The notes under the pieces: model-generated
Database searches by the model: none
Seen by the model: only the letters and a program-made list of their open reading frames with translations
What the model was told of the DNA's origin: nothing
Assembly (NCBI GenBank): GCA_015272515.1
Contig: JACYLN010000111.1
Span: 1 to 64,000 of the forward strand
Direction: 5' to 3'
DNA from: Leptolyngbyaceae cyanobacterium C42_A2020_001
GTDB taxonomy: Bacteria > Cyanobacteriota > Cyanobacteriia > Leptolyngbyales > Leptolyngbyaceae
DNA: 64,000 nt
Shown: positions 1,318-48,012 of the stretch, piece after piece
How the letters are laid out: every line of letters starts with the position of its first letter
Position numbering within the stretch: the stretch's first letter is position 1
Position numbers and translations under genes: made by a program

Positions 1318-2295
1318 ATGGATATCAAAAACGGATTTGTTGGCACCATCGGCAATACGCCCCTAATTCGCTTGAACAGCTTCAGCGACGAAACAGGCTG
1401 CGAAATTCTTGGCAAAGCAGAGTTTTTAAATCCAGGCGGATCGGTAAAAGACCGGGCAGCGCTCTACATCATCCAGGATGCGGAAGAACAGGGCTTGTTG
1501 AAACCAGGTGGAACTGTGGTGGAAGGCACAGCAGGCAACACGGGCATTGGCTTAGCTCATATTTGCAACGCCAAAGGATACAAATGCTTGATCATCATTC
1601 CAGAAACCCAGTCTCAAGAAAAAATTGATCTGTTGAGAACATTGGGTGCCGAAGTTCGCACAGTTCCAGCAGTGCCCTACAAAGATCCCAACAACTACGT
1701 CAGACTATCAGGCAGAATCGCCTCAGAACTGGAAAACGCCATTTGGGCAAACCAGTTTGATAACCTGGCAAATCGCCGCGCTCATTACGAAACCACCGGA
1801 CCGGAAATTTGGCAGCAAACGGATGGCAAGGTTGATGCCTGGGTTGCCGCAACGGGTACGGGCGGAACTTACGCCGGAGTCGCTTTGTACTTGAAGGAGA
1901 AAAACCCTAACATCAAATGCGTGGTTGCCGATCCCTATGGCAGTGGGCTGTACAGCTATGTAAAAACCGGAGAACCCCATTCGGAAGGTAACTCAATTAC
2001 CGAGGGAATTGGGAATAGCCGCGTGACTGCCAATATGCAAGGCGCACCTGCGGATGATGCGATTCGCATTGATGATGGGGAAGCGGTGCGGGTGATTTAT
2101 CAGTTGTTGGAAAAAGATGGGCTGTTTATGGGCGGTTCTGTGGGAATTAATGTGGGGGCGGCGGTTGATCTGGCGAAACAACTGGGACCGGGACACACGA
2201 TCGCGACAGTGTTGTGTGATGGCGGTAGTCGCTATCAATCCAAGCTATTCAACCGGGCGTGGTTAACCGAGAAGGGACTTTTACCAACTGGTTAA
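1318..2295 (+). CDS. cysK: Cysteine synthase A-type PLP enzyme
   Basis: The 325-residue protein is a fold-type II PLP enzyme that makes L-cysteine from O-acetylserine and sulfide in the cytoplasm. Near the N-terminus it has GNTPLIRL, then NPGGSVKDR, whose Lys44 should hold PLP. The substrate loop reads EGTAGNTG, where classical CysK has TSGNTG, and GTGGTYAG binds the PLP phosphate. The TAGNTG variant belongs to a CysK subgroup seen in cyanobacteria and alpha-proteobacteria, so a related activity such as S-sulfocysteine synthesis is not excluded. The start lies about 20 bases after an AAGGA sequence. The length is normal for the family and it is monocistronic. Confidence 0.85.
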   Translation: MDIKNGFVGTIGNTPLIRLNSFSDETGCEILGKAEFLNPGGSVKDRAALYIIQDAEEQGLLKPGGTVVEGTAGNTGIGLAHICNAKGYKCLIIIPETQSQEKIDLLRTLGAEVRTVPAVPYKDPNNYVRLSGRIASELENAIWANQFDNLANRRAHYETTGPEIWQQTDGKVDAWVAATGTGGTYAGVALYLKEKNPNIKCVVADPYGSGLYSYVKTGEPHSEGNSITEGIGNSRVTANMQGAPADDAIRIDDGEAVRVIYQLLEKDGLFMGGSVGINVGAAVDLAKQLGPGHTIATVLCDGGSRYQSKLFNRAWLTEKGLLPTG

Positions 2296-2408
2296 AGAAT
2301 TTTCTTGCTTGCCTCTCACTTCTCACTTCAGCCCCTAGAATTTAGAGTGATGCAGGTGTTCTGCCTGCGATCGCGGCTGGATTATGATCTGAACATCTGG
2401 GAGTTCCA

Positions 2409-2870
2409 ATGGAAGTGCGTTTGGTCAGGAGTTTTGTTTTATGGAAAGTATCGCAACTCAGAAGTGTTGCAGTTGGCGCTTTGACCGCGATCGTACTGGG
2501 CAGCGGGATGACCTCAGGGCTTGCAAAGTCTATTTCTTTCCCACCTTCTCCTGCTTCCACTCCAAGCGTTCAGTCTAACGTCCTGTTAGCTCAACGTTTG
2601 GTTTGCCGTCGGGTGGTTCGGGAAGGAGGAACGCCATTTTACAGAAATCTGCCCCAGCCCAACTCTTATTATGAATACCTGGATCAGGGAGCCAGAGTGG
2701 GGGTGAATCCGAATCAACAGGTGGAACGGGCACCCGATGGGCGCTTCTATGTGCGGGTGGCATACCCGTTCAATGGCAACAATGCCCTAAATGGTTATGT
2801 GTTAGAGCAATATCAAGCTCAAAATGGCAGTTTTAGAAGAACGTTGGGTGCTTGCCGGATTATGTGGTGA
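2409..2870 (+). CDS. Secreted SH3-like small protein
   Basis: This 153-residue protein has an N-terminal export signal (hydrophobic core at about residues 20-38, then a small-residue cleavage region). The mature part starts with LVCRRVVREGGTPFYRN and continues with DGRFYVRVAYPF and LNGYVLEQYQ, the spacing of a bacterial SH3-like fold that often binds cell-wall peptides. Two cysteines (CRR near the start of the mature part and ACRIMW at the end) could form a disulfide. The gene ends 11 bases inside the convergent nnr gene. I do not recognise a characterised relative; the fold is inferred from pattern only. Confidence 0.55.
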   Translation: MEVRLVRSFVLWKVSQLRSVAVGALTAIVLGSGMTSGLAKSISFPPSPASTPSVQSNVLLAQRLVCRRVVREGGTPFYRNLPQPNSYYEYLDQGARVGVNPNQQVERAPDGRFYVRVAYPFNGNNALNGYVLEQYQAQNGSFRRTLGACRIMW

Positions 2871-4410
2871 CCGATGCCAGTAGGGGAATCAGGTAGCTTG
2901 CCAACGTTTGTGGCTCCACCCCCAACACGGTTCGCTCCTGTGCTGCCAAGATTCCAGCCTGGGCGTGCCACCAGGTAGCGGATTTCACAACATCTAAATG
3001 AGATACCGAGGATGGAGACGCGATCGCTTGAGCCAGTAACCCACCCGTTAATCCAGTGAGTACATCGCCACTGCCACCACGCGCCAAGGCGGCTGTACTG
3101 TCAGGATTGATCCAGACTGTGTGCGAATCGGCGATCGCCACCCGTGCGCCTTTCAGTAAAACAATCGCACCTGTTTGAGTTGCTGCCTGCCGCACTGCTG
3201 CGATGCGACAGGTCACTGCGTCTTCCAGTTCAGGAAATAACCGCTTAAATTCTCCCAAATGTGGCGTTAACACCGTTGAGGCAGACCGATTCTGCAAGGT
3301 TTTTAGGGTTCCCAGGTGTGCCAACGCATTCAACCCATCCGCATCCAACACCAGCGATCGCTGACTGTCCAGCACCGCTCGTACTACAGGTAATGCATCC
3401 AGCGTCATTCCCGGACCACAGGCGATCGCTGAGTATTTCTCTAACTCCAGATCAGCAGGGAAAGCTGCGATCGCGCCGGATTCTGTTTCTGGACAGCCAA
3501 TAATTAGCGCTTCGGGCAAAAGCTGGCTCAGGACGGGTTTAATCGATTCGGGCACTGCGATGCTCAACATACCAACCCCGCTGGCACGCGCCCCCAAACC
3601 AGCCAGAGTTGCCGCCCCCCCATAGCGACGAGAACCAGCCACAAGCAAGAGATGTCCCACGGTGTACTTATGAGCAGTTGGCGATCGCGTTAATGGCAAA
3701 TGGGCGATCGCGGCTTGGGGGGTAATTCGCTGAATCTGAGGTTCCTGTTCCAATACTGCCTGAATATCTGTCAGCGGCAAGTCAAAATCAATCAACTCCG
3801 CCTTCCCAACCCATTCCAATGCCTGGTCTTGCAACAAACCTAGTTTCCAAAGTCCGAGGCAAAGGGTGTGAGTTGCTTGAATCGCCATTCCCAGCACTTG
3901 CCCAGTGTCGGTATGCAACCCCGATGGCAGGTCAATACTGACAATGGGAATTTTCATCTGGTTGAGTTGGGCGATCGCGTCAGCAATTTCCCCTTCCAGC
4001 GATCGCTCCAGCCCAAAGCCAAATAACCCATCTATCAGCAAATCGCACTCTTGCAAAGCATTGACGTGTTCAACAAACGAAATTCCTAAACTGCGGCAAT
4101 ACTGAGCGTGAGCCTGGGTTAACTCTTTCATTTTCTCAAAAGGCTGATAAAGCCTCACCTGACAGCCCTTAAAATGCAATTCTCGCGCTACGACCAGCGC
4201 ATCGCCACCGTTGTGCCCTGGCCCGACTAGAACCCCAACGCGATCGCCAGCCCCACAGGAATACAAGTCCTCAATGCGTTGAGTAATTCGTTGTGCCACT
4301 TTTTCCATCAATGCCGCAACGGGCATTCCAGCCGCAAACACACGCCCTTCTATCTGCCGCATCTGGTCAGCAGTAACAACAAACTGATGAATTGGGCGGA
4401 TTTCAACCAT
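2860..4410 (-). CDS. nnr: Bifunctional NAD(P)H-hydrate repair enzyme (epimerase + dehydratase)
   Basis: The 516-residue protein joins two metabolite-repair domains. Residues about 10-220 form the YjeF_N epimerase, with VGVLVGPGHNGGDALVVARELH for dinucleotide binding and VSIDLPSGLHTDTG as the second signature. Residues about 240-510 form the ribokinase-like ADP-dependent dehydratase, with HKYTVGHLLLVAGS and, near the end, NPDSTAALARGGSGDVLTG, the nucleotide and catalytic region. Together they recover NAD(P)H damaged to the hydrated form. Length and domain order match the usual bacterial fusion. It converges on the SH3-like gene with an 11-base overlap; the SPOR-like gene lies 59 bases upstream on the same strand. 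Confidence 0.9.
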   Translation of the reverse strand: MVEIRPIHQFVVTADQMRQIEGRVFAAGMPVAALMEKVAQRITQRIEDLYSCGAGDRVGVLVGPGHNGGDALVVARELHFKGCQVRLYQPFEKMKELTQAHAQYCRSLGISFVEHVNALQECDLLIDGLFGFGLERSLEGEIADAIAQLNQMKIPIVSIDLPSGLHTDTGQVLGMAIQATHTLCLGLWKLGLLQDQALEWVGKAELIDFDLPLTDIQAVLEQEPQIQRITPQAAIAHLPLTRSPTAHKYTVGHLLLVAGSRRYGGAATLAGLGARASGVGMLSIAVPESIKPVLSQLLPEALIIGCPETESGAIAAFPADLELEKYSAIACGPGMTLDALPVVRAVLDSQRSLVLDADGLNALAHLGTLKTLQNRSASTVLTPHLGEFKRLFPELEDAVTCRIAAVRQAATQTGAIVLLKGARVAIADSHTVWINPDSTAALARGGSGDVLTGLTGGLLAQAIASPSSVSHLDVVKSATWWHAQAGILAAQERTVLGVEPQTLASYLIPLLASVTT

Positions 4411-44738: not shown

Positions 44739-46067
44739 TTACAACTGGTTGCGAGCTTTGAGTTGCAGGTAGCGATCGACCAGATCTTCACTAATCTGGT
44801 TGGCGGGCGCATCCAAAATCAACACGCCTTTTTGCTTCAACTTTTCCAGGGCAAGTTGCCGTTGGGAGAGTAAGTCAAGCGCTACGGCACGGGCATAGGT
44901 ATCTGGAATCGTTGTGGTGAGGGAATGGGCCTTCGCATCGACTTGGGGATCGCGCAGGGTGACACAAAACGGCAAATGACGAGAAGACAGGCGACTCATT
45001 GCTGCTAGCAGTTCAGCAGAGGCAATTTCGTCAATTACATCGGTAATCAGCACCACCAGAGCGCGGCGAGTTTGGCGGGTTGCCACAGTGGTCACTGCGC
45101 CCAGGTAATCGGGTTCCAGCAACACGGGTTGGATCGGGGTGAGGGTTTCGATCAGTTTAGCCAATTGGGTTTGTCCACGTTCAGGCGGAACCCAAGTAGT
45201 CATTTGTCGATCAAATACGCCAATGCCAACGCGATCGCCCCGCTGCAACCCCGCTAACGCCAGCGATAAAGTGGCATTCAAGCCCCAATCAAACCGTGCC
45301 AAGCCTTTTACCTGGGCGGTCATTAAGCGTCCGCGATCGAGCAACACAACCAGGGTTTGTTCTTGCTCTGGTTCCAGCACTTTTACCAAGACGCGATTGC
45401 GACGAGCGGTAGCTTTCCAGTCGATCAAGCGGGGGTCATCCCCAGTGCCATAATCTCTGAGTTCAGCAAATTCGGTGCCCATACCCTGCCGTCGCGCCCG
45501 CCGGATATTGCCTGATGTTTGCAGGGTGAGCTTGATGGAGAGCGATCGCAGCCCGATCAGGTCAGGATAAACGGCAACGGTTTGTTGTTGGGGACTTTTC
45601 CAGTCGTCCCACGCCAAGCCCCACCGACCCAACTGCCGCACCTGCAGGTTGCCCCATTTGTACTCCCCTCGCTGAAAAGGCATCGCTGTGTAGGTAATTT
45701 CTTGGGTTTTCTGAGCTGATAATGAGAGGGTATGAGTTGCTTCTGAAACCTGAAATGCTTGCGGATAGTTGTCTCGAATCTGAATGATGGCAGGGCGATC
45801 GCTCGTCTGTACTGTTAACTTCACAGGATTGTCTCGCCCAATCGATAAGCGCTGGAGCGAATCTCGCGTTACCGTTACCCGATGCGCTCTAGTGCTAAAG
45901 CCATCGATCGCCATTGCTAGTAGCACTACTGCATCAAATCCCAACGTTGCCAAAATCGACCAACCCAACAGTCGGGGATTGATGAAATCACCTCCCAGGG
46001 TGGCGGCGATCATGCCAGCGATCGTCCCACCAACCAACCACAAATAAACGCGACGCGAGGGAATCAT
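44739..46067 (-). CDS. DUF58 domain protein
   Basis: The 442-residue protein begins MIPSRRVYLWLVGGTIAG, the usual start of this family, with two membrane helices in the first 55 residues. A beta-rich middle follows, then the DUF58 signature around EFAELRDYGTGDDPRLIDWKATARRNRVLVKVLEPEQ and a VWA-like C-terminal part (TLVVLLDRGRLMTA). DUF58 proteins pair with MoxR ATPases. The gene order here (SpoIIM, RDD, DUF58) is the common neighbourhood, but MoxR is 35 kb away. Its ATG overlaps the stop of the upstream methyltransferase by ATGA. Confidence 0.87.
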   Translation of the reverse strand: MIPSRRVYLWLVGGTIAGMIAATLGGDFINPRLLGWSILATLGFDAVVLLAMAIDGFSTRAHRVTVTRDSLQRLSIGRDNPVKLTVQTSDRPAIIQIRDNYPQAFQVSEATHTLSLSAQKTQEITYTAMPFQRGEYKWGNLQVRQLGRWGLAWDDWKSPQQQTVAVYPDLIGLRSLSIKLTLQTSGNIRRARRQGMGTEFAELRDYGTGDDPRLIDWKATARRNRVLVKVLEPEQEQTLVVLLDRGRLMTAQVKGLARFDWGLNATLSLALAGLQRGDRVGIGVFDRQMTTWVPPERGQTQLAKLIETLTPIQPVLLEPDYLGAVTTVATRQTRRALVVLITDVIDEIASAELLAAMSRLSSRHLPFCVTLRDPQVDAKAHSLTTTIPDTYARAVALDLLSQRQLALEKLKQKGVLILDAPANQISEDLVDRYLQLKARNQL

Positions 46068-46957
46068 AAAGACAAACTAGAAGATGATTGGGCAAAATCT
46101 AAAACTAATTGACTACTCAAATTAAGATTTCCATCCGCACACCTCTCATGATCAACTGCATAGTTTGTAATGAATAGCTCTTTTCCTTTAGCCGCACGGA
46201 TTTGCTTATAGTTATTCATGCCGTATTGAAGTTGCCATTCATAAAGGTAAGCGAATTGAAACTTTTCTCTGATTTCGGGGCAATCATCATAGGTCACCAG
46301 CCATTGATGATTACAGTTTTTCAAAAGTTCAGCAAATCTATCGTGATCAAAAGATGTATGAAGGTCACCTTTCTTTCCATAGAGCTTCGATTTTCTAACG
46401 CTAAGATATGGAGGATCTAAGAACAGAAAAACATTGTCTCCAGAAACTTTTAAAAGATCACTGTAATCCAAATTTGTAATCATCACACCATTGAGCAAAT
46501 TCTCTAATCTTGATAATCGCTCAATGGAAGACTCAGTAAATCTTTTGTGAAAAGCTTCTTCTGAATATCCGCCCGACTCTACCGTGCCTGAAAATGTAAT
46601 TCGATTCAATACAAAGAAACGAATCGCTCTCTCCAGTTCAGATAAATCTTGAGTGCTATCGTGCGTTAGTTTTGCAAAAAGCTCTCTTCCATTTTTATAG
46701 TGATTTTTGATTTCACGAATACCAGAAACCAAATCAGATAAACGAGATTGGGCACAATGCCAAAAAAGGAACAAATCGTAATTTAAATCATTCACCCAAA
46801 AACGCAGGTCTTTTCGTTTTTGCTTTAAGTGAATAAACAAAGAACCACCACCTAAAAAAGGCTCTCGATAATCTGAGAAGGCTGCTGGCAAATAATTAAT
46901 AATCTGGGGAATTGCTCTTGATTTTCCACCCGGATAGCGTAACGGACTTTTGATCAT
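46064..46957 (-). CDS. D12-class adenine-specific DNA methyltransferase
   Basis: The protein has 297 residues from MIKSPLRYPGGKSRAIPQI, the SAM-binding motif I of the D12 (Dam-like) class. REPFLGGGSLF, WVNDLN and FLFLDPPYLSV (Asp181, catalytic motif IV) follow. It adds a methyl group to adenine N6; the recognised site cannot be read. The stretch is AT-richer than its neighbours and lacks HIP1 octamers, which points to horizontal arrival. It is translationally linked on both sides: its ATG overlaps the stop of a 55-residue ORF, and its stop overlaps the DUF58 start. No restriction enzyme gene is visible. Confidence 0.88.
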   Translation of the reverse strand: MIKSPLRYPGGKSRAIPQIINYLPAAFSDYREPFLGGGSLFIHLKQKRKDLRFWVNDLNYDLFLFWHCAQSRLSDLVSGIREIKNHYKNGRELFAKLTHDSTQDLSELERAIRFFVLNRITFSGTVESGGYSEEAFHKRFTESSIERLSRLENLLNGVMITNLDYSDLLKVSGDNVFLFLDPPYLSVRKSKLYGKKGDLHTSFDHDRFAELLKNCNHQWLVTYDDCPEIREKFQFAYLYEWQLQYGMNNYKQIRAAKGKELFITNYAVDHERCADGNLNLSSQLVLDFAQSSSSLSL

Positions 46958-47121
46958 ATGGGTAAAACCCACTCGTTAAGAGCAAAGCCATTATCTTGAG
47001 CTTGAATGATGCAACAAGCTGGGAGCTGATTAACGTCTAGCGCCTCAAGACTAAATGTTTTTAAGGGATGACGAAGCGTTGTTTGATATTGAATTCCTTC
47101 AATGACGGCCGTAATGCTCAT
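46954..47121 (-). CDS. 55-residue protein coupled to the DNA methyltransferase
   Basis: The ORF runs from the ATG at 47121 to a TGA that overlaps the methyltransferase ATG (ATGA at 46957-46954). The product begins MSITAVIEGIQYQTTLRHPL and ends FALNEWVLPI, with two adjacent cysteines (PACCIIQ). There is no signal peptide. It has the same AT-rich composition as the methyltransferase and starts 27 bases after the NTF2-like gene. I do not recognise it. Its place before an adenine methyltransferase suggests a controller, a specificity or antirestriction partner, or the remnant of a lost restriction subunit; all are guesses. Confidence 0.6.
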   Translation of the reverse strand: MSITAVIEGIQYQTTLRHPLKTFSLEALDVNQLPACCIIQAQDNGFALNEWVLPI

Positions 47122-47148
47122 GATACAAATTCATCACCCGCAAGCACC

Positions 47149-48012
47149 TTATCTTCGTCCTTGAATTTTTAAGCGCTGAGTCACCATTGTGATCCCATCA
47201 TGCCGAACAACAACGGCTGAAAGCCAGTGCTGCTCAGCATTGTTAGGGGCGCGTCCCACCTTAAAAATACCACCAGAGTTTAAGGGTTCCAGGGTTGCAG
47301 TTGTGATGTTGGTGAAACCTTCGGGTTTGATGGTTTCTTCCAGGGCGGCACCCATCAGCAGATCGTCTCCCAATGGCTCTTGCACGATCGCATCAAAATT
47401 AAACTCCTGTCCACTCCGCACCTGCTCTGGCAAACTAATTTTCAACGTGGGCGGATTGGTACCACTGGTGATCTGGCTGCGCTCATTCAGCACTTCCTGG
47501 CTAACAATTTTTTGGTTCTCAACCCGCTGCCGTGCCTCCAGTTGGGCATTGAGCTTAAATTCGCGATCGCCCTCTTTCTTCGTTCCCGTAATGTAGGTTA
47601 CCGTCTCTGCCACAAAGGCGTTGCCTTCCTGCTTCCAAGATTTCAACTCAGTGCGGTAGCTCAAATTAGGATAGCGCTTCCACAATGCTGATAACGACTC
47701 TTGCAAGGTTTGCCGATTCAACCCATCCGAATGCGTGAATGTGGGGCTATAAAACTCCACCACTGTTTGAGCATTTTGGCGATTTGCTGCCGCGTCTAGA
47801 TTGCTCAACAGGGTTTTTAGCTGGTCGGGGGCGGCGGCTGCGATCGAGCTTTGGGCTTGAGCGGGATAGGCAAGACTCAAACCCGATGTCAACAAACCAA
47901 TGGTGAGAAGCCATGCCTGCCAATGGTGACGAGGGCGAGATGGTTGAAAACGGGAAGGGGGGAACGATGGGCGATCGCTGGAAGGCATTTGCATAACGAG
48001 AGACAATAACAC
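47149..48012 (-). CDS. Exported NTF2/SnoaL-like protein
   Basis: The 287-residue protein has a long signal region (HHWQAWLLTIGLLTSGLSLAYPAQAQS). The domain at about 60-165 (LLSNLDAAANRQNAQTVVEFYSPTFTHSDGL, then YPNLSYRTELKSWKQEGNAFVAETVTYITG) is the cone-shaped NTF2-like fold. The C-terminal 120 residues form another beta-rich region ending MVTQRLKIQGRR. An ATG six codons downstream (47994) is an alternative start. It is divergent from murG and is followed by the 55-residue ORF, so it may head the methyltransferase/DUF58 transcript. Confidence 0.62.
   Translation of the reverse strand: MLLSLVMQMPSSDRPSFPPSRFQPSRPRHHWQAWLLTIGLLTSGLSLAYPAQAQSSIAAAAPDQLKTLLSNLDAAANRQNAQTVVEFYSPTFTHSDGLNRQTLQESLSALWKRYPNLSYRTELKSWKQEGNAFVAETVTYITGTKKEGDREFKLNAQLEARQRVENQKIVSQEVLNERSQITSGTNPPTLKISLPEQVRSGQEFNFDAIVQEPLGDDLLMGAALEETIKPEGFTNITTATLEPLNSGGIFKVGRAPNNAEQHWLSAVVVRHDGITMVTQRLKIQGRR

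Follow-up and report, generated by a model that had tools for sequence, protein, structure and literature searches.

The question raised by this locus is what a 55-codon open reading frame (ORF) placed directly before a DNA methyltransferase gene could be. In the window, i.e., the whole analyzed stretch of 64,000 nucleotides from Leptolyngbyaceae cyanobacterium C42_A2020_001, the ORF occupies positions 46954–47121 of the minus strand; it begins with ATG, ends with TGA, and codes for 55 amino acids. Its TGA overlaps the methyltransferase ATG at 46957, forming an ATGA junction (46954–46957, minus strand). Both genes are AT-rich (the G+C content is 41.7% in the ORF and 36.5% in the methyltransferase gene, vs. 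51–54% in the flanking genes), and the ORF product contains a CC pair. On these points the sequence-only reading was accurate; it left undecided whether the ORF is an undescribed partner or controller of the methyltransferase, or the remnant of a lost restriction subunit. Unrelated ORFs of 50–70 codons are numerous nearby, and size alone does not place the ORF beyond chance; what does so is its homology to the N-termini of restriction enzymes.

Homology of the ORF to a restriction endonuclease

Searches with the 55 amino acids alone returned zero family matches (Pfam at E up to 10; NCBIfam, PADLOC, and PHROGs at E up to 1). When the same sequence was used as a query against 58 related genomes, two weak matches were obtained, with E-values of 5e-4 (37% identity) and 1e-3. 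Both corresponded to the N-terminus of a 377–381-residue protein, hereafter referred to as R. The R proteins match the PADLOC REase_II model PDLC03572 with E ~1e-61; this model gave no match to the 55 residues at E ≤ 1, and the window's own genome contained no further match to R (E ≤ 0.001). Scored against a profile built from nine N-termini of R, residues 2–54 of the ORF product gave 46.0 bits, while the top score of 20,000 shuffles of the 55 residues against this profile was 10.3 bits. The alignment stops at a conserved W-V-x-P motif, which reads WVLP in the window and, in the majority of the other sequences, WVSPKR. The aligned R proteins have in common a D-E...ESK stretch near residues 255–275, which looks like a nuclease core. 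The ORF ends at about R residue 54, and the core that a functional type II restriction-modification (R-M) system should contain is missing from the window locus.

The pair formed by the ORF and the methyltransferase gene is not without homologues, and longer forms, which the sequence-only reading had thought worth looking for in other cyanobacteria, do exist. Intact R genes, coding for ca. 380 residues, lie directly upstream of homologous methyltransferase genes in G032, G033, G305, G207, G296, G224, and other genomes, including the two that gave the weak matches. Type II R-M systems that combine a PDLC03572-type nuclease with a D12-class methyltransferase (those of G224, G296, G032, and others) have the gene order and the tight R-M junction seen in the window, their methyltransferases are homologous to that of the window over the full length, and the 55 residues align with the N-termini of their nucleases. 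These systems have the whole of R, whereas the window retains only codons 1–54 and the stop, the nuclease core being gone. By its N-terminal homology and its place directly upstream of the methyltransferase gene, the ORF is best assigned to the PDLC03572 type, as a degraded member. R matched nothing on plasmids and no solved structure, and it was found in none of the 36 genomes of the family of G057. The PDLC03572 model also matches Sulfolobus acidocaldarius, in which the GGCC-cutting SuaI appears to be the sole R-M system (PMC5809426); for this reason, R may be SuaI-like.

We consider it very likely (probability of ca. 93%) that the 55-codon ORF is the stump of a mostly deleted type II restriction endonuclease gene, left before a surviving solitary methyltransferase gene. 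With the profile match, the intact R genes of relatives, and the reading phase in a sister species (see below) taken together, the ORF would be an internally deleted pseudogene that ends at the native stop of R. Could the 55-residue peptide instead be an independent partner of the methyltransferase, such as a controller protein or a specificity or inhibitor peptide? Its position directly before the methyltransferase gene and its intact reading frame would fit, but the homology to the R N-terminus spans its whole length, and no match to a controller, to the helix-turn-helix families expected of a controller (C) protein, or to any other family was found for it. Moreover, the stump is lost in the sister species, and the query of the 58 nearest genomes with the 55 residues revealed no other stand-alone homologue beside a methyltransferase gene. 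A partner or controller, the first of the two possibilities raised from the sequence alone, is thus unsupported and in our view highly improbable.

Remnants of R in a sister species and beside other methyltransferases

The region around the stump (44739–48012 of the window) has the same layout in the window and in G002, a genome of the same genus, with the module flanked by SnoaL-like and DUF58 genes; the common gene order is DUF58 gene, methyltransferase, SnoaL-like gene, and glycosyltransferase. The upstream neighbor (47149–48012, minus strand; 287 amino acids) is weakly SnoaL-like, with a SnoaL_2 match below the cut-off, and its stop lies 27 bases before the stump start on the same strand. 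The downstream neighbor (44739–46067, minus strand; 442 amino acids) is the DUF58 gene, whose ATG overlaps the methyltransferase stop, also as ATGA. In G001, a third genome of the genus (assembly 84% complete), the upstream gene has a different neighbor, and a search for the DUF58 gene gave no clear orthologue. In the other family members examined, no DUF58 match lies closer to the SnoaL-like gene than about 1.5 kb, and a rearrangement would therefore have accompanied or preceded the insertion of the R-M module.

The methyltransferases of G002 and the window are 82% identical. The dN/dS ratio of 0.16 between them shows that the enzyme is kept by purifying selection. In G002, about 355 bases separate the methyltransferase gene from the SnoaL-like gene. 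The remnant there starts as in the window (ATGAGCATTACRGCMGTCATTGA), the first seven residues, MSITAVI, being identical. After this start, R profile positions 170–202 were matched weakly (8.9 bits), and positions 301–375 with 30.8 bits. The pieces lie in different frames, and the remnant ends in an ATGA junction identical to that of the window. The two sister species have thus each retained different parts of a single R gene. The N-terminal piece of the window and the C-terminal piece of G002 have equal phase relative to the methyltransferase start, and the deletion in the window is therefore net in frame, with the native stop as its end. That the ORF is what remains of a lost restriction subunit, as proposed from the sequence alone, is in this way borne out by homology to the R N-terminus, by relatives in which an intact R gene occupies this position, and by the complementary remnants of the sister species.

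No genome with an intact R gene at exactly the window locus was found, and so we infer the ancestral module, together with the order of the deletions that followed. The common ancestor of the window genome and G002 would have carried a type II R-M module between the SnoaL-like and DUF58 genes, with R first, M second, and the start of M overlapping the stop of R. In the window lineage, a net in-frame deletion would have removed R from about codon 55 to the end, leaving a start, 54 codons, and a stop directly before the intact methyltransferase gene. In the G002 lineage, separate deletions would have spared ~8 codons at the start, a piece from the middle, and the C-terminus. Both lineages now lack the nuclease, and the methyltransferase is kept as a solitary enzyme. 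Known solitary (orphan) methyltransferases that remain after loss of a restriction gene likewise consist of an intact, constrained enzyme encoded beside a broken restriction gene; compared with them, the window stands out in that its broken R can still be read and that complementary pieces of it survive in two sister species. The stump is ordinary in kind and unusually legible in detail.

Decay of R beside other methyltransferase genes takes several forms. In G380, a 94-codon ORF, which stops 3 bases before the methyltransferase gene, joins the N-terminus of R to the C-terminal tail of R (IRANHE, compared to IRANR in G032). About 70 codons have been cut out, in frame, of the R gene of Anabaena azotica. 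Further remnants contain frameshifts or insertions, or comprise the C-terminal 45–70 codons only. In the family of G380, a trace of R was detected in 47 of the 217 genomes. On a methyltransferase tree of 92 tips, intact, broken, and absent R genes are interspersed, "absent" meaning no profile match upstream; part of the tips came from searches for R, which biases the proportions. Parsimony on this tree requires at least 23 changes of the "R intact" state, close to the mean of 26.5 obtained with shuffled labels.

Several loci with R genes or remnants have peculiarities of their own. At L207 (G453:C209:155300-158200), positions 824–2150 contain another 55-codon R stump, with a stop where relatives have a conserved Trp, followed by a 301-residue ORF weakly resembling HaeII-type endonucleases (PF09554, E 2e-5, just under the cut-off), as well as a 77-residue ORF resembling the C-terminus of the methyltransferase; here a second restriction module may have taken the place of the first. 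At L221 (G498:C4) and L209 (G392:C49), the R genes are split by insertions of roughly 1.1–1.6 kb, which may be insertion sequences.

Translational coupling and the fate of the stump

The ATGA overlap raises the question of whether the stump persists as a coupling leader peptide, derived from the dead R gene, whose translation supplies ribosomes to the methyltransferase start. By eye, no clear Shine-Dalgarno sequence is seen just before the methyltransferase ATG, and deletions have preserved the R frame in the window, G380, Anabaena azotica, G022, and at the first joint in G002, all of which agrees with a coupling leader. Yet six joints are out of frame (the second in G002, those in G575, G578, and G446, and two in G526), and 5 in-frame joints out of 11, counted for internal deletions whose frame could be judged, partly by eye, are no signal when one third is expected. 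In G002, furthermore, the frame opened by the start codon of R closes long before it reaches the methyltransferase gene, which is intact and constrained. We regard such a coupling leader as decidedly unlikely.

The idea that the stump has retained a role finds no support, since G002 lost the stump but kept the methyltransferase and the deletions are not clearly in frame above chance. The pseudogene stump that we favor is probably functionless in itself and would at most deliver translating ribosomes to the methyltransferase start. The more general idea that selection has kept R stumps with a native start and stop for solitary GGCC methyltransferases, either to serve as coupling leaders or because they form a small N-terminal domain, is a long shot; if it were true, stump retention would mark a stage at which an R-M system is being domesticated as an epigenetic regulator.

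Chemistry of the methyltransferase

The methyltransferase gene (46064–46957, minus strand) is intact and encodes a 297-residue enzyme of the D12 class, which matches PF02086 (D12) with E 4e-37 and contains both the FxGxG and DPPY motifs. Against TIGR00571 (dam) it scored 111.6 bits, just below the curated cut-off of 114.85. Its closest solved relative by far is 7M6B (E 6e-95, residues 1–272), which is M.CbeI (PMC8616854). M.CbeI of Caldicellulosiruptor bescii, also of the D12 class, was once annotated as an adenine methyltransferase and in fact is an alpha-class N4-cytosine enzyme, which carries DPPY and yet makes m4C at GGCC; it resembles Anabaena DmtB (PMC3425538). In Synechocystis, GGm4CC is produced by M.Ssp6803II, an enzyme with homologues in nearly every cyanobacterial clade (PMC6560206). 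DmtB and M.Ssp6803II, both GGm4CC enzymes of the D12/DPPY kind annotated as adenine methyltransferases, are likened to the window enzyme by description.

The sequence-only reading called the enzyme an adenine methyltransferase, which now appears doubtful: the D12/Dam family name says so, and the nearest characterized relative is an N4-cytosine enzyme. An ordinary m6A methyltransferase, whose R partner cut an adenine-containing site, would agree with the names of the Pfam D12 and TIGR00571 dam families, with the DPPY motif, and with the existence of a Burkholderia GTWWAC adenine methyltransferase resembling type II enzymes. M.CbeI, however, is far ahead of DpnM (E 5e-12) and Dam (E 5e-9) as a match, and it shows that neither DPPY nor a D12 adenine annotation precludes m4C synthesis at GGCC. 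On Nostoc plasmids, genes for relatives of the window enzyme lie next to genes with a HaeIII-family endonuclease annotation, and the R model matches S. acidocaldarius, with GGCC-specific SuaI. The adenine reading is unlikely on this evidence; from the identity of 7M6B, the HaeIII-family neighbors, and the SuaI connection, the window enzyme probably methylates GGCC to GGm4CC. A GTWWAC site, considered through the Burkholderia BCAM0992 methyltransferase, was dropped once 7M6B was recognized as M.CbeI.

A previously unexplained short gene can thus be accounted for as a pseudogene stump, and the likely chemistry of the neighboring enzyme corrected. A cyanobacterial methyltransferase, probably of the GGCC N4-cytosine kind, would here be caught on its way to a solitary state, its nuclease partners being variously intact, broken, or vanished across the tree, and the origin of a widespread GGCC N4-cytosine epigenetic mark may be traceable lineage by lineage.

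On a mobilizable plasmid of Nostoc sp. UHCC 0870 (L227, positions 1648–3343), a methyltransferase gene of the same kind overlaps a HaeIII-family endonuclease gene. R has no homology to the HaeIII-family enzyme, and the nucleases that pair with methyltransferases of this kind therefore belong to at least two families unrelated to each other.
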